A stretch of DNA of 34,833 nt from an uncultured Flavobacteriales bacterium (lineage in GTDB: Bacteria > Bacteroidota > Bacteroidia > Flavobacteriales_D > Sanyastnellaceae). The DNA lies in contig CAJQIB010000030.1 in assembly GCA_905478325.1 (NCBI GenBank), positions 1 to 34,833 of the forward strand, in the 5' to 3' direction. Both the position numbers and the translations under genes were made by a program. This document shows, piece after piece, positions 12,293-34,833 of this stretch. Numbering within the stretch: the stretch's first letter is position 1; each line of letters starts with the position of its first letter. The notes beneath the pieces were generated by a model that saw nothing but the letters and a program-made list of their open reading frames with translations, did no database searches and was not told where the DNA came from.

Positions 12293-13870
12293 ATGATGCG
12301 TGCCATGAATTGCACCCCCACAGCGCAAGTTGATACCGTCAGTTCGGATTCTCTGATCGGTGCTTGGCTGAAGCAGGAAGAGTCAATCCGGCCATTTTGG
12401 CCTTTTTCTTCAAGTTTTCAAGGCATACAAGATCGATTGGCTCATACCCAGGGGATCAACATGGAACGTCGATCCCTTGTGTCGGATGCCTTGGAAAGAC
12501 AATATCGAGCCGCAGCGATTCCAATTCCACAAGAGATTCAGTCTTTTCGGTCTGGCGCACGTGCGGTGACAACGGGCCACCAATTGGTTTTGATGGGAGG
12601 TCCTGCATTCTTTCATTACAAGATCCTCTCTGCGATCCGATGGGCGAAGGCGCTTTCTGATCAAGGGATTGCTGCTGTTCCTGTTTTTTGGCTCGCCTCC
12701 GAAGATCATGATTTTGAAGAGATTGCACAGGTTTTTTCTAGCGGGGAAAAAGCCTTTCACTGGCGCCCAAAAGAAGATCCCAAAGGCAAGGCAGTGGGAA
12801 GGTTAGTTTGGACGCAAGAAGACGAAAAGGCGTTGGCGCATTGGGCCAATACAGTGGGTGTCTTGCCGATGCAAGTCAACCATTCATTTGACTCCATGCC
12901 CTTAGCTCAACGCGTGAGAATGTGGGTTCATGAGATGTTTGGAGAGCAGGGTGTCCTGGTCATTGACGGGGACGACCCCGAACTGAAAAAAGCGGCAAGT
13001 CATCTTTGGAATGCCGAATGGAACGGAGGCGGCATTGCCGATTCCGTGCTCGAGTCAACGGCTGCTTTGGAGGCTGCGGGATGGAAAGCGCAGCTACGTC
13101 CGCAGCCAAACAATGTGTTTCATTTGAACGAAGCGGGCCAACGGACACGCTCGGACCGATGGTTGGAGAACAATGGAGCAACGTCATGGGAAGCTGTTTC
13201 AGCGGAAAAATGGAGTCCCAACGCTGCTTTGCGCCCCTTGTACCAGGAGTTCCTATTGGAAAGTGCTGCCGTGATCGGAGGTCCAGGTGAAGTTGCGTAT
13301 TGGTTGCAACTCAGGCGCGCTTTTGATCATCACAAAATAGAATTGCCCGCACTGATGTTACGGGATGGTGCATTGGTGTGGTCAGTGGAACAGGCCACAT
13401 TGGCTCAAGCTGTTGAATGGTCTCCAGCACGTGGTATGTGGAATGGGGCCGAGGCCTCAGCATTTTGGGTGAGCAGGCAGATGGAACCAGAGGATGAAGT
13501 GCAGCAGGCATGGAGCCAATGGGGAAAGGTACTTGAGGCACATGCGAATGGAATAGGGAGGGAGGTGGTTCCAACGACGCTGGCAGCGCTCAAGCAAATG
13601 GAAAAAGAATGGCTGCGGTTGAAGAAAAAATGGAGGAAATCGGTTCGCGCTAGGCATGCAGAGCGATGCCTGGATTTGGAACATCTTTTTGATGCTGTAA
13701 TTTTTCCTCAGGCGAATCCGCAAGAACGGGTGGTGAATGCCCGCGGACTGGCAGGCGATGCTGAAAGCTTTGAAGCTTGGTGCCGTCTGTGGCTTCAAAA
13801 TGTTGAGGGCGGTATTGATCCTCAATTTTTGATTTTCGAGTCACTTTCAAAACTCGATGTTGGTGACTAA
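12293..13870 (+). CDS. bshC: Bacillithiol biosynthesis cysteine-adding enzyme BshC
   Basis: 525 residues, normal for BshC. The protein adds cysteine to glucosaminyl-malate, the last step in making bacillithiol, a low-molecular-weight thiol used by Firmicutes and many Bacteroidota instead of glutathione. Signature stretches are AVTTGHQLVLMGGPAFFHYK (about 91-110), KILSAI, VPVFWLASEDHDFEEI, and a C-terminal helical coiled-coil region with KQMEKEWLRLKKKW. The start ATG at 12293 is followed by a second ATG codon at 12296 and one at 12305; any could be used. The gene is 24 bases after the T9SS gene and 9 bases before the HAD-like gene. bshA and bshB are not in the window. Confidence 0.93.
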   Translation: MMRAMNCTPTAQVDTVSSDSLIGAWLKQEESIRPFWPFSSSFQGIQDRLAHTQGINMERRSLVSDALERQYRAAAIPIPQEIQSFRSGARAVTTGHQLVLMGGPAFFHYKILSAIRWAKALSDQGIAAVPVFWLASEDHDFEEIAQVFSSGEKAFHWRPKEDPKGKAVGRLVWTQEDEKALAHWANTVGVLPMQVNHSFDSMPLAQRVRMWVHEMFGEQGVLVIDGDDPELKKAASHLWNAEWNGGGIADSVLESTAALEAAGWKAQLRPQPNNVFHLNEAGQRTRSDRWLENNGATSWEAVSAEKWSPNAALRPLYQEFLLESAAVIGGPGEVAYWLQLRRAFDHHKIELPALMLRDGALVWSVEQATLAQAVEWSPARGMWNGAEASAFWVSRQMEPEDEVQQAWSQWGKVLEAHANGIGREVVPTTLAALKQMEKEWLRLKKKWRKSVRARHAERCLDLEHLFDAVIFPQANPQERVVNARGLAGDAESFEAWCRLWLQNVEGGIDPQFLIFESLSKLDVGD

Positions 13871-24831: not shown

Positions 24832-26562
24832 ATGAGAACCCGATTGGATTGTAGCCCTTTATGGAATGGCTTAGCCCTGCTGTTTGTTTTGATGAGCGCA
24901 CCGCCTTCAGCCTCGAGTCAGCTGTCTATGGTGGAGTCAAGTGCCGCTATAACGCCCGTTGTGCAGCTTGAAGCGCCAGGAATGGATCAGCTTTTAGCAC
25001 GAGCCTGGTGGCACGAAGAGAATACGGGAAAGACGATGCAGGGTCATATTGTAGAGGCTGATATTGATTTTTTCGAAGAGGCTCTTCATGAAGTTTCTAG
25101 CGGCGTCGAATCGTGGCAATTGCTTGTAAACATTGCAAATGCGCCGGCACTTTGTGTGTATTTTGAATCCTTTCATTTGCCTGTCGGGGGCGAGCTCACT
25201 TTAGAATCACCGGAAGGTGCTTTTGAGATTCCCTTTGTGGAAGGTCCCATCGATCATCGAGAGAACAACGATCACGGATTGTTTGTGAGTGGTGAAGTCC
25301 CTGGAGAAGTTGGTTTGCTCCGGTATACACAGCCTGTGGGTACGGTCGGAACACCTTCCCTTCACATCAATGGGGTTGGCGTGCTTTTTCGATTTCTTTG
25401 GTTGGACGGTGAATACGACGTTCTGTTCGAAAACAACCGCGGTTCAGATCCGTGCGAAGTGAATGTGAATTGTCCGGAGGGTGAGGACTGGGTTTGCCAG
25501 CGAGATGCGGTTGTTCGCCTGAGGATTACGCAAGATGGTGGGATCTTTTTGTGCTCGGGTGCGATGGTCAACAATACGGCTCAGGATTGCAAGCAAATGT
25601 TGCTGAGTTCATTTCACTGTGCCGATGCTGTTGAAGAGAATGAATGGGCCTTGTTGAAGGTGCGTTACAACTATGAGTTTTTTGAATGCGAAGGCATTTC
25701 AAGTTTCAATTCGCACGTCCGCACAGGGGTCGAGTTTCTGACTAGCTCGGATGATGCTGTGGGAAACAACATCAATGGTTCCGACTTTTTGCTCTTGGAA
25801 GTAGAGGACAATGTCTTTGATTCTTGGGTTCCTTTTTATGCAGGGTGGGATGTTTCGGGCGAGAATCCAGAAGAGGGGGTGGGCATCCACCATCCTGCTG
25901 GTGATCGCAAGAAGATTTCGACCTACGTCAATTCACCAACCAATAGCAGCGCGTACCACCCGGGGGCACACTGGCGTGTTTACTGGACGGAGACAGAAAC
26001 AAACCACGGCGTGACCGAAGGAGGCTCGTCGGGTTCTCCATTGTTTGATCAAAACGGACTGATTGTAGGCACCTTAACCGGAGGAGCTTCGTTTTGTACC
26101 AGCCCCAATTCACCCGACTACTACGGCAAGATGAGTTACCATTGGGATGGCAATAACCCCATCACCGAAGTGGAAAAGCTGTACAATTTCTTGGACCCTC
26201 AGGGAACCGGAATCGAGGTGTTAGAGGGAAGCTACGTGACCGAATTTGAAACGCCTTGCGCCGGCCAGTCTGTTTGTGGGATTGTTGATGTGGAAGAGCA
26301 GTGGCTTCGGGAAAACACGTGGTCACTGCACCCGAATCCATCGAACGCACTGGTCACACTGCAATGGTCTGGCGAATTGCGCGCTCAGGAGGTGAGGCTC
26401 TATGACCAAACAGGACGGCCGGTTGAGACGATCTCCTTCAAAGGCATCCAGAATCCGCAGTTTTCGGTAGCCCACTTGCCTTCAGGCCTGTACTATGTCA
26501 CATTGCAAACGGAGGGCGGTGCGACCGCTACGCGAAAATTGATGGTGGCAAGCGCTCAGTGA
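24832..26562 (+). CDS. Secreted trypsin-like (lysyl-endopeptidase-like) protease with T9SS type A tag
   Basis: 576 residues. Signal peptide 1-30. A beta-rich propart runs to about 205. The peptidase core has a trypsin-type triad: His262 in LSSFHCAD, Asp318 in GSDFLLLEVED and Ser400 in EGGSSGSPLFD. The blocks EGVGIHHPAGDRKKIS and W..GVTEGGSSGSP match the lysyl endopeptidase (S1) family. Cysteines 208, 214, 222, 241, 253 and 263 suggest disulfides. Residues about 498-574 are a T9SS type A sorting domain: LHPNPSNALVTLQW, VRLYDQTGRPV, LPSGLYYVTLQT and final ATRKLMVA. It is expected to act outside the cell on proteins. The 3' end overlaps the convergent mutS2 gene by 7 bases. Confidence 0.93.
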   Translation: MRTRLDCSPLWNGLALLFVLMSAPPSASSQLSMVESSAAITPVVQLEAPGMDQLLARAWWHEENTGKTMQGHIVEADIDFFEEALHEVSSGVESWQLLVNIANAPALCVYFESFHLPVGGELTLESPEGAFEIPFVEGPIDHRENNDHGLFVSGEVPGEVGLLRYTQPVGTVGTPSLHINGVGVLFRFLWLDGEYDVLFENNRGSDPCEVNVNCPEGEDWVCQRDAVVRLRITQDGGIFLCSGAMVNNTAQDCKQMLLSSFHCADAVEENEWALLKVRYNYEFFECEGISSFNSHVRTGVEFLTSSDDAVGNNINGSDFLLLEVEDNVFDSWVPFYAGWDVSGENPEEGVGIHHPAGDRKKISTYVNSPTNSSAYHPGAHWRVYWTETETNHGVTEGGSSGSPLFDQNGLIVGTLTGGASFCTSPNSPDYYGKMSYHWDGNNPITEVEKLYNFLDPQGTGIEVLEGSYVTEFETPCAGQSVCGIVDVEEQWLRENTWSLHPNPSNALVTLQWSGELRAQEVRLYDQTGRPVETISFKGIQNPQFSVAHLPSGLYYVTLQTEGGATATRKLMVASAQ

Positions 26563-28748
26563 GCGACCCACGTTAATTTTTCCAATTCTACGCGGGTTCG
26601 AAATGATCCGAATAGAACAAGGGCATGCCCTTGATTCAATTCAATGACTTCACCCCGCTCTTTTCCGCCATTGCGAAGCCTGACGATGGAACCGACTTGG
26701 ATGCGGTCCACAAAATGCTTTGGGCGTTTTTTCGGAGCACGGGCTGCGGAGGCTTTGCGCTTGGCCAAAGTGTCTTTGGCGGCGCTGTCCAATTTGGAGC
26801 GTTCCATGGCCAGGTATTTCCGGACGTCTTCAAAAAGCTCCTTGTTTTTACTCTCAGCTTGATACCGATCAACAAATTGAAGCAGCCGTCGTCCGCGGTT
26901 TAGCGCGGCATTTTGTTCCTCTGCTACCGTTTGTTGGTGAATGGATCGCTCATCCAAATGCGCTTGATTCGAGTCGAGTTGGAACCGCAGTTGGTCGTTT
27001 TCCAATTCTTTTCGCAGGTTTCGATCTGTGATTTTGGAAAGGGTGTTCTTCTCTTTTTGAAGTTCACCGATCAGTTCATCCAACCGGACCTTGCGCCCAT
27101 CTAACTTGCCTTTCGCTCGATTGATGAGGTCGTCGTCGATTCCATTGATGGTAGCGACTTCGAAGGTGAACGAACTTCCGGGGGTGCCAATGTCCAACTT
27201 GAACAGCGGCTCGAGGGATTCTCTGTCGAATCGCATCGAACCATTCAAAGCTTCGGGCAGTTGCGCAGCGCGCGATTTGATGTTGGCGTAGTGTGTGGTG
27301 ATGACCCCGAAACAACCCCGGTGATAGAGTTCTTCAAAAAACACTTCGGCCAATGCTCCGCCGAGTTCAGGGTCCGATCCGGTTCCAAACTCATCCAATA
27401 AAAGGAGGGCCCGCCCATTGGCCACCTCGAGAAACCCTTTCATGCGGTTGAGGCGATAGCTGTACGTGCTTAGTTGGTTTTCGATGCTCTGGTTGTCTCC
27501 GATGTCGGTGAGCAATGCGTCGAAAAACCCCATTTCACTGTTGGGGTGTGCCGGTACCATGAGCCCGCTTTGAAGCATGGCTTGCAACAACCCTACGGTT
27601 TTGAGCGTGATGGACTTTCCGCCTGCATTGGGTCCAGAAATAACCAGCATCCGCCCTTTGGGATGAAGCGCAATGGTTTGCGGTTCCGTATTCATCCCCG
27701 CCTTTTCATTTTGCAGGTAAAGAAGAGGATGGTACGCTTGAATCAAGTGAAAGCCGCTTTCTGTTCGCAAGCCCGGGAGGTCTCCACCCATTTCCTGAGC
27801 GAGTTGCACTTTGGCTCGAATCCAGTCCAATTCGACCAGCAATATTTGATACGCCTTGATCAGCGGAAGGTGCTTCCGGATCCCTTGTGTTAGATCACGG
27901 AGGATGCGTAGAATCTCTTTGCGCTCATCGTCTCGCAACATTTCCATCTCAAAATTGAGTGAAATATTGACTGCTGGCTCGATGAATGTGATGCTGCCAT
28001 TGTTGGACTGTCCTAGGACGGTTCCGGGCACTTTTCGTTTGTGCGTGCTGTTGATCGAAAGCACGCGACGGTCATTGATAAAACCTTCCTTGGTGTCGGC
28101 TAGCCATCCGCGTTCAGCGCAATCTTTGAGGGACTTGATGAATTGGCGATTGATAGATCGTCTCACACGGATCATGTCTTCTCGAATGGTGACCAGCTTT
28201 GCGGAAGCATTGCTCCGGACATTCCCCTTGGCATCAAAGACCTTGTCAATGGGATCAATGAGTTCCGTGGTAGCCTTGACGTTGCGCAATAAATAGAAGA
28301 GGCGGGGGTTGATGGAATCCCGCCCTTGAAGTGCGGCAACGACATCATTGATCGTTTCAGATGCGACGCGCAAGCGCATGAATTGCGGTTCACTTAATAC
28401 AGACTCTCGAATGTTAAGACGCTCAATTTCCCGATGGATTTCGTCGCAACCTACCGCTGGAAATGGAATGGATTCACGCCGTATTTGAAGAAACTCTTTG
28501 GTCTCCTCCAGCGCACGCACCATCCGTTTTCTGTTGCGGAAGGGTTTCAAAGTTTGAGCACGCTCTTGTGCGGTTGGGTTGTGGCAATACCCCAGCAATA
28601 ACGTTCTTATGGCATTGAACTCCAGGTCACGTGAAGTTTGGGTGTCAAAGGCGCCCATGTAGTCGCCGCTCCAAACGTGCTGCGAGCTTTTGGTGCGCAG
28701 CTTTTGCGTCTTTTTAGGGTTGGTTCCCTTATTGCTTTCCGGATGCAT
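26556..28748 (-). CDS. mutS2: MutS2-family ATPase lacking the Smr domain
   Basis: 730 residues. Core domain with Walker A GPNAGGKS (372-379) and Walker B LLLLDEFGTGSD (448-459), then GVITTHYANIK. A long helical clamp lies before it (100-320) and a coiled coil follows (about 545-670). The end (683-727) is a small KOW-like barrel, GSIVRLRNGGKERGEV..LNQGHALVLFG. Full-length MutS2 carries a C-terminal Smr nuclease domain of about 80 residues; the protein stops before it. MutS2 has been linked to recombination and, in Bacillus, to splitting collided ribosomes. The ATG at 28748 is 2 bases after the miaA stop, which supports this start; Met31 (28658) would fit the homologous core better. The first 30 residues are polar and Lys-rich. 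Confidence 0.9.
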   Translation of the reverse strand: MHPESNKGTNPKKTQKLRTKSSQHVWSGDYMGAFDTQTSRDLEFNAIRTLLLGYCHNPTAQERAQTLKPFRNRKRMVRALEETKEFLQIRRESIPFPAVGCDEIHREIERLNIRESVLSEPQFMRLRVASETINDVVAALQGRDSINPRLFYLLRNVKATTELIDPIDKVFDAKGNVRSNASAKLVTIREDMIRVRRSINRQFIKSLKDCAERGWLADTKEGFINDRRVLSINSTHKRKVPGTVLGQSNNGSITFIEPAVNISLNFEMEMLRDDERKEILRILRDLTQGIRKHLPLIKAYQILLVELDWIRAKVQLAQEMGGDLPGLRTESGFHLIQAYHPLLYLQNEKAGMNTEPQTIALHPKGRMLVISGPNAGGKSITLKTVGLLQAMLQSGLMVPAHPNSEMGFFDALLTDIGDNQSIENQLSTYSYRLNRMKGFLEVANGRALLLLDEFGTGSDPELGGALAEVFFEELYHRGCFGVITTHYANIKSRAAQLPEALNGSMRFDRESLEPLFKLDIGTPGSSFTFEVATINGIDDDLINRAKGKLDGRKVRLDELIGELQKEKNTLSKITDRNLRKELENDQLRFQLDSNQAHLDERSIHQQTVAEEQNAALNRGRRLLQFVDRYQAESKNKELFEDVRKYLAMERSKLDSAAKDTLAKRKASAARAPKKRPKHFVDRIQVGSIVRLRNGGKERGEVIELNQGHALVLFGSFRTRVELEKLTWVAH

Positions 28749-28750
28749 GA

Positions 28751-29755
28751 TCAGGTCATCGGGGGGTCTGTTCCGTCAAGAGGGGCAGGAGACCATCCCC
28801 GCTCTGCACAGCAAGCCATGGCCCAATTGAATGCCGCCATGCGATTGGAGGCGTCAAACCAATTGATTCCGTCCATGCGTTTGAACCAGGTCATTTGACG
28901 CTTTGCAAACTGCCGGGTATGGACTTGAATGGCAGAAATGGCTTGGTCGCGAGATAGTTTTCCGTCGAAGTGATCGAACCACTCTCGATACCCTACCGTT
29001 TGCAGTGCATTGAGATGCGCCTTGGGATGCAGTTCACGCGCTTCAGACTCAAACCCACTTTCGACCATCTGTGCTACTCGGGCGTTGATCCGGTCGACGA
29101 GCCATTCGCGGTTCATTTCCAGTCCAATGATGCGGATATCGAAAGGTCTTTCCGCTGCGGAGTTGCTGTGGTGAGAAGAAAAAGGTTTTCCACTGGCCAA
29201 ACACACTTCCAAAGCGCGAATGACGCGTTGTGTGTTGGACCGATCCATTTTGGCATAATGAATGGGATCCAATTCCTTGAGTTGTTTGAGCAGCGAGTCG
29301 GCGCCGTTTTCTTCGAGCTCTTTGTGAAGGCGTTCACGGATTTCAACCGAAGCAGGCACTTCGTCGAGTCCTTCCAATACAGCTTTGATGTACAATCCAC
29401 TGCCTCCTACCATGACAGCGGTCCGATGGCTCGAGAACCAGTTCTCTAACCACTTCAAGGCTTCCTTCTCGAATTGTCCAGCGCTGTACAACTTCTCGAC
29501 ATCCAAGAAATCGACAAAGTGATGGGGCACTTCTGCACATTCAGTGGCCGTTGGTTGCGCCGTTCCAATGCGCATGTCACGGTAGACTTGGCGAGAATCG
29601 GCGTTCAGTATTTCACATCCTAGCCATTTTGCCAATCCAATGGCCATGCTTGTTTTGCCAATGGCAGTGGGCCCAACTACGACAAAAAGTAGTGGGCGTT
29701 CACCGGGCGTAAGGGGTGCCGATGGCGAGTGGTGAGAGGATGCGGAAGGGGTCAA
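28751..29755 (-). CDS. miaA: tRNA dimethylallyltransferase
   Basis: 334 residues, slightly long because of a 21-residue Ser/Pro-rich N-terminus before the P-loop. The enzyme attaches a dimethylallyl group to A37 of tRNAs that read codons starting with U. Seen: VVGPTAIGKTS (P-loop), ILNADSRQVYRDMRIGTAQPT (substrate-binding DSRQ(V/I)Y), VPHHFVDFLD, MVGGSGLYIKAVLEGLDEVP, and the C-terminal TVGYREWFDHFDG and TRQFAKRQMTWFK. The gene lies in a tight minus-strand operon: 15 bases after the pRiA4b-like gene and 2 bases before mutS2. Confidence 0.95.
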   Translation of the reverse strand: MTPSASSHHSPSAPLTPGERPLLFVVVGPTAIGKTSMAIGLAKWLGCEILNADSRQVYRDMRIGTAQPTATECAEVPHHFVDFLDVEKLYSAGQFEKEALKWLENWFSSHRTAVMVGGSGLYIKAVLEGLDEVPASVEIRERLHKELEENGADSLLKQLKELDPIHYAKMDRSNTQRVIRALEVCLASGKPFSSHHSNSAAERPFDIRIIGLEMNREWLVDRINARVAQMVESGFESEARELHPKAHLNALQTVGYREWFDHFDGKLSRDQAISAIQVHTRQFAKRQMTWFKRMDGINWFDASNRMAAFNWAMACCAERGWSPAPLDGTDPPMT

Positions 29756-29770
29756 GTGGCCGTTGCGTAT

Positions 29771-30364
29771 TCAAAGAAGGTCTCCATAATCATCGATATT
29801 GTCCATCTCCCCACCCTGTGTTTCGTCTTCATCTTCGTCTCCGCTGAGGTAAGCATCCAGTTCAGGGTCTCCCGTTTTGTATGGTTCAGCGTCACCATTT
29901 TTCGCTCGTTCAATTTCTTCGGCCAATGACGCGAGGTCATCCAGCCCTTCTGGTTGACGGCTGTTCGGGTCTGGCGCCGTTCCAAATTGTAGCATCAGTC
30001 GGGGGTAGGCAATGGTTTCATCGGCCTCTTCCAAAGACAGGGGCTCCAAATAGAAGCACCACATTCTCAAGTAGTCGTACGCATAGACTCCTCGCGCTTC
30101 TAACGTGGGCAACAGATCACCAACGGTGGTTGATTCCATGCTTGGCAATTCGGGAGACATGGACATCAGAGGGATTTCGTCACCGCGATCCCACGCATCA
30201 TTGCTTTTGAAAAATGAAGCCATTTCCGGAGCATTGTTCCAGTCGAAAGCATCCAATGTTGCCAAATGCAGGTGCTCCAAAGGGGCACTCATTTCAATTT
30301 CGATGTCCCGAAAAACATCGTCTTCGGTGTCTAGAATTACACGGAGTTTAAGAATCGAAGCCAT
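29771..30364 (-). CDS. Plasmid pRiA4b ORF-3-like (IS1096 passenger TnpR-like) protein
   Basis: 197 residues, cytosolic. The first 140 residues look like the pRiA4b ORF-3 fold: LKLRVILDTEDDVFRDIEIE, EHLHLATLDAFDWNNAP, then an acidic linker and the block VGDLLPTLEARGVYAYDYLR followed by MWCFYLEPLS. The C-terminal 55 residues are very acidic (DPELDAYLSGDEDEDETQGG). Bacteroidota carry this family as an ordinary chromosomal gene, and it is not evidence of a mobile element here. The function is unknown. It is 3 bases after ytxJ and 15 before miaA, so it shares their operon. Confidence 0.75.
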   Translation of the reverse strand: MASILKLRVILDTEDDVFRDIEIEMSAPLEHLHLATLDAFDWNNAPEMASFFKSNDAWDRGDEIPLMSMSPELPSMESTTVGDLLPTLEARGVYAYDYLRMWCFYLEPLSLEEADETIAYPRLMLQFGTAPDPNSRQPEGLDDLASLAEEIERAKNGDAEPYKTGDPELDAYLSGDEDEDETQGGEMDNIDDYGDLL

Positions 30365-30367
30365 GGC

Positions 30368-30697
30368 TTAAAGGTACGCTTTGACGGCCGTTGGGTCAAT
30401 GTGGTGGTGGTTGGCATGGTGGATGCACTTGCCATCTCGAATGACCAGCATTTGCGGCGATTCGTGGTGAATGCCGAGCGCCTCGGAAATGTTCTGACTC
30501 ACATCTCGGTGATTCAATAGATCCAAGAGTAGGGGACGCACAGTCGCAGGGAGATCCCACTGACTCGTTGTCAACTTTAGCGCCATGCGGCTGATGCTGC
30601 ACCGCGTACTGTGTTTGAACACGACCACAAGCTGCTCATGCGAGGCAGTCAATGCTGCTTGAAATGTTTCCTTAGAGTCCAATGTTTCCCAATCCAT
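30368..30697 (-). CDS. ytxJ: Bacillithiol-system redox-active protein YtxJ (monothiol bacilliredoxin-like)
   Basis: 109 residues from the ATG at 30697. The frame stays open upstream to 30757, but that would overlap the divergent gene and the -7 elements, so 30697 is chosen. It has a thioredoxin-like fold with the family signature VVFKHSTRCSISRMALK (about 25-41), where Cys33 is the single active cysteine, then LLDLLNHRDVSQNISEALGI and HHESPQMLVIRDGK. YtxJ-type proteins are thought to take bacillithiol off oxidised cysteines. Together with bshC at 12293 it shows that this organism uses bacillithiol. It is the first gene of the minus-strand operon ending with mutS2. Confidence 0.92.
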   Translation of the reverse strand: MDWETLDSKETFQAALTASHEQLVVVFKHSTRCSISRMALKLTTSQWDLPATVRPLLLDLLNHRDVSQNISEALGIHHESPQMLVIRDGKCIHHANHHHIDPTAVKAYL

Positions 30698-30719: not shown

Positions 30720-30727
30720 CAAAAGTA
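30720..30727 (-). promoter_or_regulatory. -7 element TACTTTTG for the ytxJ operon
   Basis: Exact match to TAnnTTTG on the minus strand, 22 bases before the ytxJ ATG at 30697. A TTTG lies 27 bases upstream (30755-30758, minus strand), longer than normal for a -33. Confidence 0.5.
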
Positions 30728-30737
30728 CCACGAGTTC

Positions 30738-31271
30738 ATGGACACGCGCATCATCAAAATCGCATTAGCGTTAGGTAGTTTGGCTTATGCCATTTCATTG
30801 TTTCTAAAAGGACATATCGGGAGTGGAGTAGGCATGGTTCTGGTGTGTGCTCTATTTGTGTTAATGACCCTTCAGAGTTTGCGGTTGATCATGGCATTTG
30901 TCAACCTGCGTCAACAGAAAATGGACGACGCACGAAAGTGGCTGAGCCGTGTGAATCCCAAGCATCTTTGGCCACGAAGACGCGGGTATTGGTACTTTTT
31001 GATGGGCAGCTTGGCCATGGAGCATAACATGAATGACGCCGAACGTTTGTTGCGTGAGGCGTTGGAAATGGGGTTGAAGCAAGACCATGATAAAGCCGCC
31101 GTCAAATTGAATTTGGCCGTCGTGGCTTCAGCGAAACGTAAGCCTAAATTGGCCAAAGCCCTGCTCGCTGAATGCAAGCGTTTGGACAAGAAGGGCATGC
31201 TGAAGAAGGACATCAAACAGGTGGAGGCTGCCATTCAAAATCCACAGGTCATGCGCATGCGCGGCCGATAA
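30738..31271 (+). CDS. Membrane protein with two TM helices and TPR-like repeats
   Basis: 177 residues. Two transmembrane helices at about 6-23 (IKIALALGSLAYAISLFL) and 28-52 (GSGVGMVLVCALFVLMTL). The remaining cytosolic part has a helical repeat pattern like tetratricopeptide repeats: QKMDDARKWLSRVNP, YWYFLMGSLAMEHNMNDAER followed by LLREAL, and AAVKLNLAVVASAKRKPKLA followed by KALLAEC. The C-terminus is highly basic. Not recognised as a named family; it is probably a scaffold for a membrane-bound complex. The gene is alone, divergent from ytxJ, and converges on the E1 dehydrogenase gene (62 bases, with no clear hairpin). Confidence 0.8.
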   Translation: MDTRIIKIALALGSLAYAISLFLKGHIGSGVGMVLVCALFVLMTLQSLRLIMAFVNLRQQKMDDARKWLSRVNPKHLWPRRRGYWYFLMGSLAMEHNMNDAERLLREALEMGLKQDHDKAAVKLNLAVVASAKRKPKLAKALLAECKRLDKKGMLKKDIKQVEAAIQNPQVMRMRGR

Positions 31272-31333: not shown

Positions 31334-33361
31334 TCAGGTGTTGAGCAACGCTCTCAGCACTGCTTCCAACCGGTGATTGGCCAAGAATTGTTTCTCTAAA
31401 TCTGCGGCAAAAGGGAAGGCCGTATCCAGTCCTGCCACCCGTGTCACTGGGGCATCTAAATCGGTCCAACACGACTCTTGGATGCGCGCGCTAATTTCTG
31501 CGCCAATGCCGCCGGTCATCGTGCCTTCGTGCAATACCAAAGCCCGATTCGTCTTTCGAACACTCGCCATGACCGTTTCTTCATCCCATGGGAGCAAGGT
31601 CCGCAAGTCGATGATTTCCAACGACCACTCTGGATGTTCTACTTGAATTGACTCAGCCCAAACCACTCCCAGTCCGTAAGTTACAATCGTAGCGTCCTGA
31701 CCTGTTGAGGCCATTCGGGCCTTTCCAATGGGAGTTTTGAAGGGGGTTTCGGTGACCATGCCGGAAAGAGAACGGTACAAAAACTTGTGCTCGAAGTACA
31801 GGACCGGGTTGGGGTCTTCAAAGGCTTCGATCAAAAGTCCTTTCGCATCTTCAGGAGTAGAGGGATAAACAATCTTCAAGCCGGGTACGTGAAAGAACCA
31901 TGCTTCGATCGATTGACTGTGAAAGGGTCCCGCACCTACGTTTCCACCTGTTGGCATGCGCACGACAACATCGGCCGCTTGCCCCCATCGCCAATGGATT
32001 TTTGCGAGATTATTGACGATTTGATTGAATCCAACCGTTGAGAAATCACTGAACTGCATCTCCATCATGGCCTTTTTGCCAGCGATAGAGAGTCCCAATG
32101 CCGCACCAACGATAGCAGATTCGCAGAGGGGTGTATTGCGAACGCGGTCTTTTCCAAACCGATCCGTGAATCCTTCCGTGACTTTGAAAACGCCTCCATA
32201 ATCGGCGATGTCTTGCCCCATGAGCACCAAGTTGTCATGGCGTTCCATGGCTTGGCCGAGTCCATCTTGGATGGCGTCGATCATGCGCATTTCACGTTTT
32301 TCCACAAGGGATGGCGTGGCTTCTGGCAATGTCGATTCTGGAATGGGGGCGAAGCGGTCATTCAATTCTGTCTCCAAGTCCGCCACGATGGCGGGCTCTG
32401 CAGCTGCGAATTTGAGACCGTGTTCGATGGTGGCTTTGTGTTCTGCACGCAAATTCTCAAGGTGCTCTTTGGTCATAACGCCCGATGCAATGGCCCACTC
32501 CGTAAATCGCTCGACGGGGTCTATTTGTGCCCAATGGTCGATCAGGCCTTCAGGATAATATTTGGTACCTGAAGCTTCCTCGTGTCCACGCATTCGGAAC
32601 GTCTTGAATTCCAGGATGATGGGCCGAGGTCGTTCGCGAACTTCCTGAGCTGCGTGTTGCACAGCGTGGAAAACAGCCAAGATGTCGTTGCCGTCAACTT
32701 GAATGGCATCTTCTTGCGGAATGCCATACCCAATGGCTTTGTCTGTGAAATGCGCGCAACGGAACTGTTCAGAGGAAGGAGTCGATAAGCCCCATGCGTT
32801 GTTTTCGATGCAAATGACGACCGGTAAATCCCAGACTGCAGCGACGTTGACGGCTTCGTGAAAGTCACCTTCAGAAGCGCCGCCGTCTCCAGTAAAGACC
32901 AAGGTCGCTTTGCCGTTGTTGTCCAATTTATGCGACAAGGCAATGCCATCGGCAATGCCCAACTGCGGTCCGAGGTGGGAAATCATACCGACGATTCGGT
33001 GTTCTTTGGAACCAAAGTGAAAAGACCGGTCGCGTCCTTTTGTGAACCCATGCGCCTTGCCTTGGAATTGAGCAAACAAGCGATCGAGGCCTATGCCTCG
33101 CGTTGTGAAAATGCCCAAGTTTCGGTGCATGGGCAAAATGAACTCATCGGGGTTGAGAGCGGCTGCAACACCCACGCTAATCGCTTCCTGTCCCATGCCG
33201 CTGAACCATTTGGAGATTTTTCCTTGGCGCAGTTGGCTCATCATCTTCTCTTCAATCATCCGCGGAAGCAGCAGCTGACTGAACAACGTTTGGATGGCTT
33301 CGTCGCTTAAGTTTTTTCGCTCAAATAGGAGCGGATTGTGCGGAAAATCTGAAGATTTCAT
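31334..33361 (-). CDS. Fused alpha/beta E1 component of a 2-oxoacid dehydrogenase (probably branched-chain)
   Basis: 675 residues from the ATG at 33361; the frame is open to 33451, but this would overlap the divergent promoter region and the extra 30 residues look unlike the family. Residues about 20-330 are the E1 alpha subunit (GKISKWFSGMGQEAISVG, TPP motif GDGGASEG..IENNAWG at 158-191, FRMRGHEEASGTKYYP). Residues about 356-675 are E1 beta (RMIDAIQDGLGQAMERHDNL, MGQDIADYGGVFKVTEG, FHSQSIEAWF with His481, YPSTPEDAKGLL). The enzyme decarboxylates a branched-chain or similar 2-oxoacid with thiamine diphosphate and passes the acyl group to the E2 lipoyl domain. Fusion of the two subunits is common in Bacteroidota. 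E2 and E3 are not in the window. Confidence 0.92.
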   Translation of the reverse strand: MKSSDFPHNPLLFERKNLSDEAIQTLFSQLLLPRMIEEKMMSQLRQGKISKWFSGMGQEAISVGVAAALNPDEFILPMHRNLGIFTTRGIGLDRLFAQFQGKAHGFTKGRDRSFHFGSKEHRIVGMISHLGPQLGIADGIALSHKLDNNGKATLVFTGDGGASEGDFHEAVNVAAVWDLPVVICIENNAWGLSTPSSEQFRCAHFTDKAIGYGIPQEDAIQVDGNDILAVFHAVQHAAQEVRERPRPIILEFKTFRMRGHEEASGTKYYPEGLIDHWAQIDPVERFTEWAIASGVMTKEHLENLRAEHKATIEHGLKFAAAEPAIVADLETELNDRFAPIPESTLPEATPSLVEKREMRMIDAIQDGLGQAMERHDNLVLMGQDIADYGGVFKVTEGFTDRFGKDRVRNTPLCESAIVGAALGLSIAGKKAMMEMQFSDFSTVGFNQIVNNLAKIHWRWGQAADVVVRMPTGGNVGAGPFHSQSIEAWFFHVPGLKIVYPSTPEDAKGLLIEAFEDPNPVLYFEHKFLYRSLSGMVTETPFKTPIGKARMASTGQDATIVTYGLGVVWAESIQVEHPEWSLEIIDLRTLLPWDEETVMASVRKTNRALVLHEGTMTGGIGAEISARIQESCWTDLDAPVTRVAGLDTAFPFAADLEKQFLANHRLEAVLRALLNT

Positions 33362-33438
33362 GGAATCGGGTGCATGAATCACGAAGGTACGTTGTTCCGC
33401 TTTTCTGCTTCCATGCCAGCCGGGATTATCTTCGTGCC

Positions 33439-34833
33439 ATGTCCAAGCCAACGGGTAAAGCCCATCGCAAAAGAAAATTTAGAGCAAATCCCGCTTTCCA
33501 GGATCGCAAACGACTGGATTCTCCATTGGGCCAAGTGGAGGTACAACTGCCTGCAAGCCTGGCTGCCAAAGAGGAAATCTTAGCGCAGGAAGTGGCAGAT
33601 GCAGCCGGTTGGTTGCTTGATGAATTGGGTGATTTCCGCGTAATTCGGAAGAACTTGGATGCCAGGAGACGCCCCGTAAAAGCCGTATGGACTGTGGATG
33701 TTGCTCAGAAGGGCCACGTGCTTCCGAGTTTGGAATTCCCTGGCTGGAGCGCACCACCCTTGTCATCTGATGCCCCTGAAATTGTCATCGTTGGCGCCGG
33801 TCCTGCAGGGTTGTTTGCCGCTTTGGAATGTTTGGAACAGGGTTTTCGTCCAATCATCATTGAGCGTGGAGCCTCAGTGCGCCAGCGCCGGAGGGATTTG
33901 GTGCGCATCACCCAGGATCACCATGTCAACCCGGATTCCAATTATTGTTTTGGCGAGGGTGGAGCCGGAACCTACAGTGACGGCAAATTGTATACCCGCA
34001 GCCACAAAAGAGGGGACATCCGTTCTGCTTTAGAATGCTTAGTCGCTTTTGGTGCGGACCCCGCAATTTTGGTGGATGCCCATCCACACATCGGAACCAA
34101 TAAGTTGCCTGAAATCATCCAGTCCATGCGTGAGGCCATTGTGAATGCCGGAGGCGAGGTGCATTTTGGTTGCCGCATGGTCGATGTTCATGAGGAAACG
34201 GGAAGTGTGAAGGCCATTGAGTGGTTGGAGTTGTCGACGGGCATCACGGTGAAACGGGCTTGTGAAGCCTTGGTCTTGGCGACAGGACACAGCGCGCGGG
34301 ATGTCTTCTTACTGTTACATGGAAAGGGATGGCAGTTGGAAGCGAAACCGTATGCCATTGGCGTGCGCGTTGAGCATCCCCAAGCCTTGATTGACCAGGT
34401 CCAATACCATGGTGAAGAACGGGGTGATTGGCTTCCGCCAGCATCCTACAAATTGGTTTGCCAAGTGGACGGGCGCGGTGTGCATTCATTTTGCATGTGC
34501 CCCGGAGGAATTATTGCACCCTGTGCCACAGAACAAGAGCAGATCGTAACAAATGGCTGGTCCCCTTCGAAGCGAAACAATCCCTATGCCAACTCGGGCA
34601 TGGTAGTTCAGATTGATCACGAAATTTGGGAGCAAGCTGGATTTGAGGGGCCTCTTGGGGGCCTCGACTTTCAGCGCATGGTTGAACAGGCGTGTTGGGC
34701 GGCTGGCGGAAAAACACAGCGTGCGCCCGCGCAACGGTTGTTGGATTTTCTAGCGGGTGACGAAGGACGGGTGTCTCGTGACTTGCCTACGTGCTCATAT
34801 GTGCCCGGGGTTGTCTCAGTCAACTTAAGGGCA
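33439..34833 (+). CDS. NAD(P)/FAD-dependent oxidoreductase (COG2509-type), 3' truncated
   Basis: The frame starts with ATG at 33439 and is open to the last base (465 residues), so the gene runs out of the window. The N-terminal 30 residues are very basic. An FAD-binding Rossmann motif is at EIVIVGAGPAGLFAALE (114-130), followed by IIIERG. Then comes the family's YCFGEGGAGTYSDGKLYTR (169-187) and a later VLATGHSARDVF. These match 'FAD-dependent dehydrogenase' proteins of COG2509, whose physiological substrate is unknown. The stretch HSFCMCPGG and a second ATG... type glycine loop also fit. It is divergent from the E1 gene (77 bases between starts). Confidence 0.85.
   Translation, partial: MSKPTGKAHRKRKFRANPAFQDRKRLDSPLGQVEVQLPASLAAKEEILAQEVADAAGWLLDELGDFRVIRKNLDARRRPVKAVWTVDVAQKGHVLPSLEFPGWSAPPLSSDAPEIVIVGAGPAGLFAALECLEQGFRPIIIERGASVRQRRRDLVRITQDHHVNPDSNYCFGEGGAGTYSDGKLYTRSHKRGDIRSALECLVAFGADPAILVDAHPHIGTNKLPEIIQSMREAIVNAGGEVHFGCRMVDVHEETGSVKAIEWLELSTGITVKRACEALVLATGHSARDVFLLLHGKGWQLEAKPYAIGVRVEHPQALIDQVQYHGEERGDWLPPASYKLVCQVDGRGVHSFCMCPGGIIAPCATEQEQIVTNGWSPSKRNNPYANSGMVVQIDHEIWEQAGFEGPLGGLDFQRMVEQACWAAGGKTQRAPAQRLLDFLAGDEGRVSRDLPTCSYVPGVVSVNLRA

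Follow-up and report, generated by a model that had tools for sequence, protein, structure and literature searches.

In Bacillus subtilis, the SMR and KOW domains recruit MutS2 to collided ribosomes; mutating SMR causes an intermediate or modest phenotype, whereas the ATPase proves critical, according to the accessible part of the study (PMC10897456). The same part describes KOW-SMR proteins as restricted to the Bacteroidetes lineage (PMC10897456). Recombination-related roles have been attributed to MutS2 in other bacteria, likewise in sources available in part, and further background comes from the accessible parts of PMC12292046, PMC10950700 and PMC3942029. In a survey of which a portion was available, 97% of the RqcH-bearing genomes also had MutS2; among 1,956 genomes of the FCB group, MutS2 was counted in 1,781 and RqcH in 404 (PMC11633108). 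The PRiA4_ORF3 family includes MM3350, a protein without known function. A limited literature search returned no paper under an NCBI-style product name for ORF3, linking PRiA4_ORF3 with tRNA, placing miaA with mutS2 in an operon, or describing a tRNA cluster, and, judged by titles, none of apparent relevance on MutS2 lacking Smr.

Here we compare these systems with four neighboring genes, ytxJ/brxC, orf3, miaA and mutS2, of an uncultured Flavobacteriales bacterium. The window, that is, the whole stretch of DNA that was analyzed (34,833 nucleotides), is one entire contig (CAJQIB010000030.1) of a 2.38 Mb genome. Our preferred reading, to which we give a probability of roughly 0.5, is that there was an ancestral tsaC-cca-orf3-miaA array, that the present run grew stepwise around its remnant, and that ORF3 is accessory to tRNA maturation. 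If this is true, a widespread protein named only after a plasmid ORF gains a testable role in tRNA finishing.

Layout of the four-gene run and its candidate promoter

By ORF calling, the four genes form a contiguous minus-strand run with intergenic gaps of 3, 15 and 2 bases (Table 1). A first-pass annotation of the window had given these spacings and identities, and ORF coordinates and family profile scores agree with both. YtxJ scores 106 bits against BrxC (PF11009) and 106 bits against TIGR04019 (cut-off 77.25), ORF3 belongs to PRiA4_ORF3 (PF07929) at 39.8 bits (cut-off 26.6), MiaA exceeds the TIGR00174 equivalog cut-off of 148.65 with 284.8 bits, and MutS2 reaches 551 bits against TIGR01069 (cut-off 400), covering profile positions 3–687 of 790. 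The TTG of miaA is the sole ATG, GTG or TTG ahead of codon 37, which lies beyond the P-loop. The start of mutS2 is uncertain, with a second in-frame ATG 90 bases downstream, near the onset of the conserved part.

Table 1. Positions of the genes, domains and candidate promoter discussed in the text, numbered from the first base of the window.
Feature	Position	Strand	Remarks
bshC-like bacillithiol biosynthesis gene	12293..13870	+	~13 kb past mutS2 end, same contig
mutS2	26556..28748	-	without SMR domain; ATPase motifs GPNAGGKS and LLLLDEFGTGSDP intact
KOW-like (MSSS) domain of MutS2	26574..26696	-	C-terminal; protein stops right after
miaA	28751..29755	-	tRNA dimethylallyltransferase (i6A37); TTG start
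orf3	29771..30364	-	chromosomal PRiA4_ORF3-like, 197 aa, acidic; proposed tRNA-maturation accessory protein
ORF3 acidic tail, residues 138–197	29774..29953	-	lower-confidence model region
ytxJ/brxC	30368..30697	-	monothiol bacilliredoxin-like, 109 aa; family profiles
-7 box TACTTTTG, candidate operon promoter	30720..30727	-	30 bases ahead of ytxJ start
divergent TPR-like gene at operon head	30738..31271	+	TPR matches below cut-off

The motif TAnnTTTG, which we take to be the Bacteroidota -7 promoter element, lies 27–41 bases ahead of the ytxJ start in 18 of 19 loci examined among the 22 genomes of the genus, and the box at this position is likely the operon promoter. Across the entire window the motif occurs 11 times, four on the minus strand and seven on the plus strand. 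The four genes are likely carried on one transcript, as the first-pass annotation had supposed, given their identities, their spacing, the conservation of their order in the genus and the conserved promoter-like head. However, 4 of the 19 genus loci have TAnnTTTG further in as well, within the stretch from the ytxJ start to 100 bases beyond miaA, so that internal promoters are possible. Co-transcription would let all four genes track the growth demand for translation.

The TPR-like gene and ytxJ diverge from a common 40-base gap, and a TPR-like gene divergent from ytxJ was also seen by eye in several relatives. Sigma-70-type promoters were fewer than in shuffled sequence (2 found, 6.2 expected); the sigma-70-type consensus is probably the wrong promoter class for Bacteroidota. 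Terminator-like sites were close to expectation (12 against 11.3). A seeming MiaA-MutS2 fusion in one relative, G035, was a 1028-aa open frame around MiaA, and the MiaA and MutS2 ORFs proved to be separate.

On the far side of mutS2, a trypsin-like gene with T9SS sorting (24832–26562, plus strand) overlaps it by 7 bases at the 3' ends (26556–26562). Profile matches show that T9SS sorting domains are encoded in the genome, and a convergent gene beyond mutS2 is present in G029 (locus L213) as well. Beyond the other end of the run, the alpha and beta parts of pyruvate dehydrogenase E1 are fused in a single 705-aa ORF (31334–33451); by eye, L093 and L213 have a similar gene close to the head of ytxJ-orf3-miaA.

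Gene order among relatives

We surveyed gene order in 120 genomes including that of the window, of which 22 belong to the genus, 51 to the rest of the family and 47 to the order level; the genus counts take in gene fragments at contig ends. Within the genus, ytxJ and orf3 are adjacent in 22/22 genomes, orf3 and miaA in 22/22, and miaA and mutS2 in 21/22, the sole exception being a genome in which the miaA match stops at a contig end. In the other family genomes, orf3 adjoins miaA in 28 of 51 and miaA adjoins mutS2 in 24, with two more within 3 kb and a GNAT gene between the two in G045. Adjacency of ytxJ and orf3 is found in six, and in nine more the genes are ~700 bases apart, a gap that a DUF3575-like gene fills in G022. 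At the order level, miaA-mutS2 and ytxJ-orf3 adjacencies were each found in 0/47 genomes.

The complete four-gene order occurs beyond the genus in three of the 51 family genomes (G029, G048, G062) and in none of the 47 at the order level; among 80 named loci it is present in nine, including L063, L064 and L067. Partial versions include ytxJ-orf3-miaA without mutS2 (L093) and, in genus g14 (G034, G052, G069), ytxJ, miaA and mutS2 in a row with no ORF3 match, the miaA of G052 being split over two contigs. Conservation of gene order, which the first-pass annotation had proposed as a check, is complete in the genus but dissolves outside it. The four-gene operon is real but bound to its lineage, a recent local assembly, and orf3-miaA is the most widely kept part of the run. 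In our preferred reading, a genus-specific later layer would have formed when the bacilliredoxin gene joined upstream and an SMR-less mutS2 downstream of orf3-miaA.

Neighborhoods of orf3 and the ORF3 protein

A match to orf3 was found in 114 of the 120 genomes. It is absent from six, five of them in family f1, and assembly gaps may account for some of these. Neighbors of orf3 were examined in 109 relatives (G064, G066, G091, G114 and G119 were unfetched). In these, orf3 adjoins miaA in 69, lies near cca in 16 (11 of them with tsaC too) and has other neighbors in 24, the cca count leaving out the far side of the 69 miaA-linked genomes. From genus to order level, orf3 has miaA or cca neighbors in 12 of 13 families: the partner is miaA in f1, f2, f4–f8, f11 and f12 and cca/tsaC in f3, f9 and f10, and in f13 orf3 adjoins neither. 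The 80 named loci include 62 in which miaA is adjacent or tsaC/cca lies within 3 kb of orf3; miaA is adjacent in 33 (eight of these with cca, and five of the eight with tsaC), and cca is present without miaA in 29.

At the class level, 34 genomes have a PF07929 match, of which 24 were examined; G144, G174, G185, G201, G259, G271, G287 and G291 were unfetched, and G295 and G311 were left out of the count, as their PF07929 scores resemble the other PRiA4_ORF3 type. In 16 of these 24 loci, tsaC, cca, truA or miaA lies within 3 kb of orf3 on the same strand. The order cca-orf3-miaA is present in nine, six of them preceded by tsaC, and truA-orf3-miaA in one. By Pfam, the array of L206 reads Sua5/YrdC, tRNA nucleotidyltransferase, PRiA4_ORF3 and IPPT, and in L136 a tRNA pseudouridine synthase, read as TruA, stands ahead of orf3-miaA. 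Arrays of the form tsaC-cca-orf3-miaA occur in some Flavobacteriales as well as in further families of the class, and L115 (Leeuwenhoekiella) has a tsaC-cca-ctaA-orf3-NA37 block by Pfam, with L124 alike by eye. The simplest history that we infer is an ancestral array broken on one side or the other.

Twelve class genomes without a PRiA4_ORF3 match all have MiaA, so ORF3 is dispensable for MiaA per se; like the g14 genomes, this counts against our preferred reading. In its favor, tsaC and cca were not detected in the fetched miaA flanks of these twelve. Within the window, no transposase or resolvase adjoins orf3, whose neighbors are ytxJ and miaA.

Other settings of orf3 include rpe/yajC, arginase with a peptidase, and an ABC transporter. 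The rpe-orf3-yajC neighborhood was seen in some genera of the family (L173, L177, L179, L183), with a DUF1573-like gene within the stretch in L177 (by Pfam) and L183 (by eye). In six f13 loci (L156, L159, L163, L166, L191, L192), nitroreductase-like and arginase-like genes stand ahead of orf3, and a large protein that looks secreted is encoded after it; the arginase and an S8 peptidase were assigned by Pfam in L156 and the remainder by eye.

A serious competitor, which we consider about half as likely to be right as wrong, is that this is an ordinary housekeeping operon, brought together by chance accretion under shared constitutive expression, with orf3 unrelated to tRNA. Beyond the genus the order varies gene by gene, the DUF3575-like and GNAT genes of G022 and G045 are further inserts, and such tRNA-maturation neighbors are missing for orf3 in 24 of the 109 relatives, eight of the 24 class loci and 18 of the 80 named loci. 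Chance accretion is harder to reconcile with the families examined, since 15 of the 17 include one or more genomes in which a tRNA-maturation gene flanks orf3. Judged from this genomic context, ORF3 is probably a tRNA-maturation accessory protein, and tRNA maturation appears better placed to accommodate it than redox or rescue. Gene context falls short of proving function, and old operons persist by inertia.

An AlphaFold2 model of ORF3 built from 53 sequences has a mean pLDDT of 88.8. Its core (residues 1–138) matches MM3350 (PDB 2i1s) with Z 17.3 and an rmsd of 3.2 over 135 residues, and a Foldseek search with the model gave two matches at E <=0.001, both of them chains of 2i1s. Neither an RNA-binding fold nor an active site was recognised in ORF3. 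The alignment contains invariant residues including R8, R19, D20, W58, D97 and W102, the pI is 4.05–4.65 across all 53 members, and near relatives keep the motif TGDPELDAYL in the tail (residues 164–173). In a tree, 70 rows of ORF3 form a split from eight other PRiA4_ORF3 proteins with support 100/100; the mutual order of these eight is unsure, as one is a long branch and three have odd composition.

The second-best structural matches of the model are human SNAPc complexes (four entries, Z 7.5–9.7, 116–118 residues). The chain matched is, we assume, SNAPC3. Below these come many ubiquitin-like folds, and the likeness to SNAPc possibly reflects a common arrangement, perhaps ubiquitin-like, with no functional link.

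How such a protein could take part in tRNA maturation can be sketched. ORF3 would be a protein-binding helper of the enzymes that finish tRNAs, not an enzyme itself. Its MM3350-like core might dock on Cca, which works at the 3' CCA end, and on TsaC and MiaA, which make A37 modifications, and its acidic tail, with a charge like that of nucleic acid, might mimic or displace tRNA or help to release it, tuning hand-over or access; both steps are guesses. More specifically, and only tentatively, ORF3 could be an acidic adaptor that couples completion of the CCA end to A37 modification (t6A by TsaC, i6A by MiaA) in many Bacteroidia, ancestrally within tsaC-cca-orf3-miaA. The favored explanation has no need of a step from redox to ribosome stalling.

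MutS2, bacillithiol redox and comparison with known systems

YtxJ was found in 89 of the 120 genomes, and all 53 aligned loci, some of which share a genome, have Cys at the position corresponding to Cys33. BshC was matched in 109 of the 120, including on the window contig. The window BshC is above the PF10079 cut-off at 214.6 bits and, against TIGR03998, below the NCBIfam equivalog cut-off (226.8 against 265.8). A part for YtxJ in bacillithiol redox is plausible. Against PF10079, BshC of the genus scores lower (E values from 8e-41 to 2e-63, with one split copy weaker) than BshC of many other genera of the family (1e-90 to 1e-114).

The ATPase core of MutS2, with P-loop and Walker B, is present and aligns to 7qv3 and 8qpp. 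Its KOW-like region scores 26.3 bits against Pfam MSSS, slightly below the cut-off of 26.8, and the family profile alignment spans the KOW of B. subtilis MutS2 (7qv3; residues 3–684). The C-terminal SMR domain is absent from MutS2, the profile match halting at 687 of 790. In 32 of 32 complete loci of relatives (27 distinct proteins), MutS2 stops 0–3 residues past the aligned KOW end. Among the matches listed for the phylum sample, TIGR01069 alignments reach 789–790, with SMR matched where these same regions end; scores like that of the window (E ~1e-162 to 1e-185) occur, again among the matches listed, in sampled members of f1, f9, f15, f16 and f17 (one of those in f15 scoring far lower) and in G284 of f47. 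The locus puts on view a MutS2 lineage without SMR, the collision sensor in B. subtilis, and because of this lack, conclusions from B. subtilis MutS2 are not transferable unchanged. Six genomes of the family (G031, G038, G040, G047, G049, G063) gave only weak, MutS1-level MutS2 matches; they may have lost MutS2, though their assemblies may be incomplete.

A separate 213-codon ORF of the genome, on another contig, scores 28.1 bits against SMR (cut-off 25.7) and has the motifs DLH and HGIGQG; its N-terminus looks KOW-like by eye, and the family match confirms the SMR part only. A near copy of this protein scores 26.8 bits against Smr (cut-off 25.7) with no KOW match. The collision response could on this basis be divided between two proteins, MutS2 being the ATPase splitter and the separate SMR protein (DxH, HGxGxG) the sensor or nuclease. 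In favor are this ORF, the fusion of SMR to MutS2 among the matches listed for the phylum sample, and the Bacteroidetes restriction reported for KOW-SMR proteins. We regard such a division as doubtful, since 20 of the 120 relatives and 10 of the 198 genomes in the phylum sample wholly lack an SMR match, and many of the phylum genomes have two or three SMR matches each, so that finding a second such protein is not in itself a sign of a division.

The first-pass annotation had gone further and proposed, on the premise that MutS2 rescues ribosomes, that redox (disulfide) stress, tRNA hypomodification and stalled ribosomes are dealt with through a single transcript. The tight spacing and genus-wide order fit this proposal, as do the intact ATPase and KOW-like domain. 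In B. subtilis, MutS2 is disabled only in part when SMR is lost, and its ATPase is critical, at least in the accessible part of that study, so the SMR-less MutS2 may, by analogy, still act in rescue. The joint circuit nevertheless came out as a weak link, and we think it very unlikely: MutS2 has no SMR domain, its relatives in other bacteria also have the recombination-related roles mentioned above, and the order-level genomes have neither adjacency that would tie ytxJ and mutS2 to orf3-miaA. RqcH (NFACT_N, PF05833) was above cut-off in 0 of 120 genomes, with no match in the window's own genome and two weak sub-threshold matches elsewhere; the same search detected it in 11 of 14 control genomes. 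This absence is weak evidence and ordinary for the group, because FCB genomes, in the survey cited above, often have MutS2 without RqcH.

Set beside the described systems, the window MutS2 aligns with that of B. subtilis (7qv3, 8qpp), a ribosome splitter, over core, clamp, ATPase and KOW (residues 3–684) but lacks its SMR domain, and the genome lacks an RqcH match. The genome's separate SMR protein shares the DxH and HGxGxG motifs and, by eye, a KOW-like N-terminus with the Bacteroidetes KOW-SMR proteins, as far as the accessible part of their description goes (Park et al. 2023, PMC10897456); its gene, however, is on a different contig, outside the operon, and the SMR part alone is family-confirmed. 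Like the monothiol bacilliredoxin BrxC (YtxJ), the window YtxJ is above the TIGR04019 cut-off and keeps the active-site Cys; it reads CSIS where the relative in PDB 3iv4 has CPIS, and the genome's BshC is below the equivalog cut-off. With the PRiA4_ORF3 family (PF07929; MM3350, PDB 2i1s), which includes transposon-borne ORFs according to sources available in part, ORF3 shares its Pfam match and predicted fold (Z 17.3), yet it branches apart from the eight other members sampled, is very acidic, and in most of the loci examined lies beside tRNA-maturation genes.
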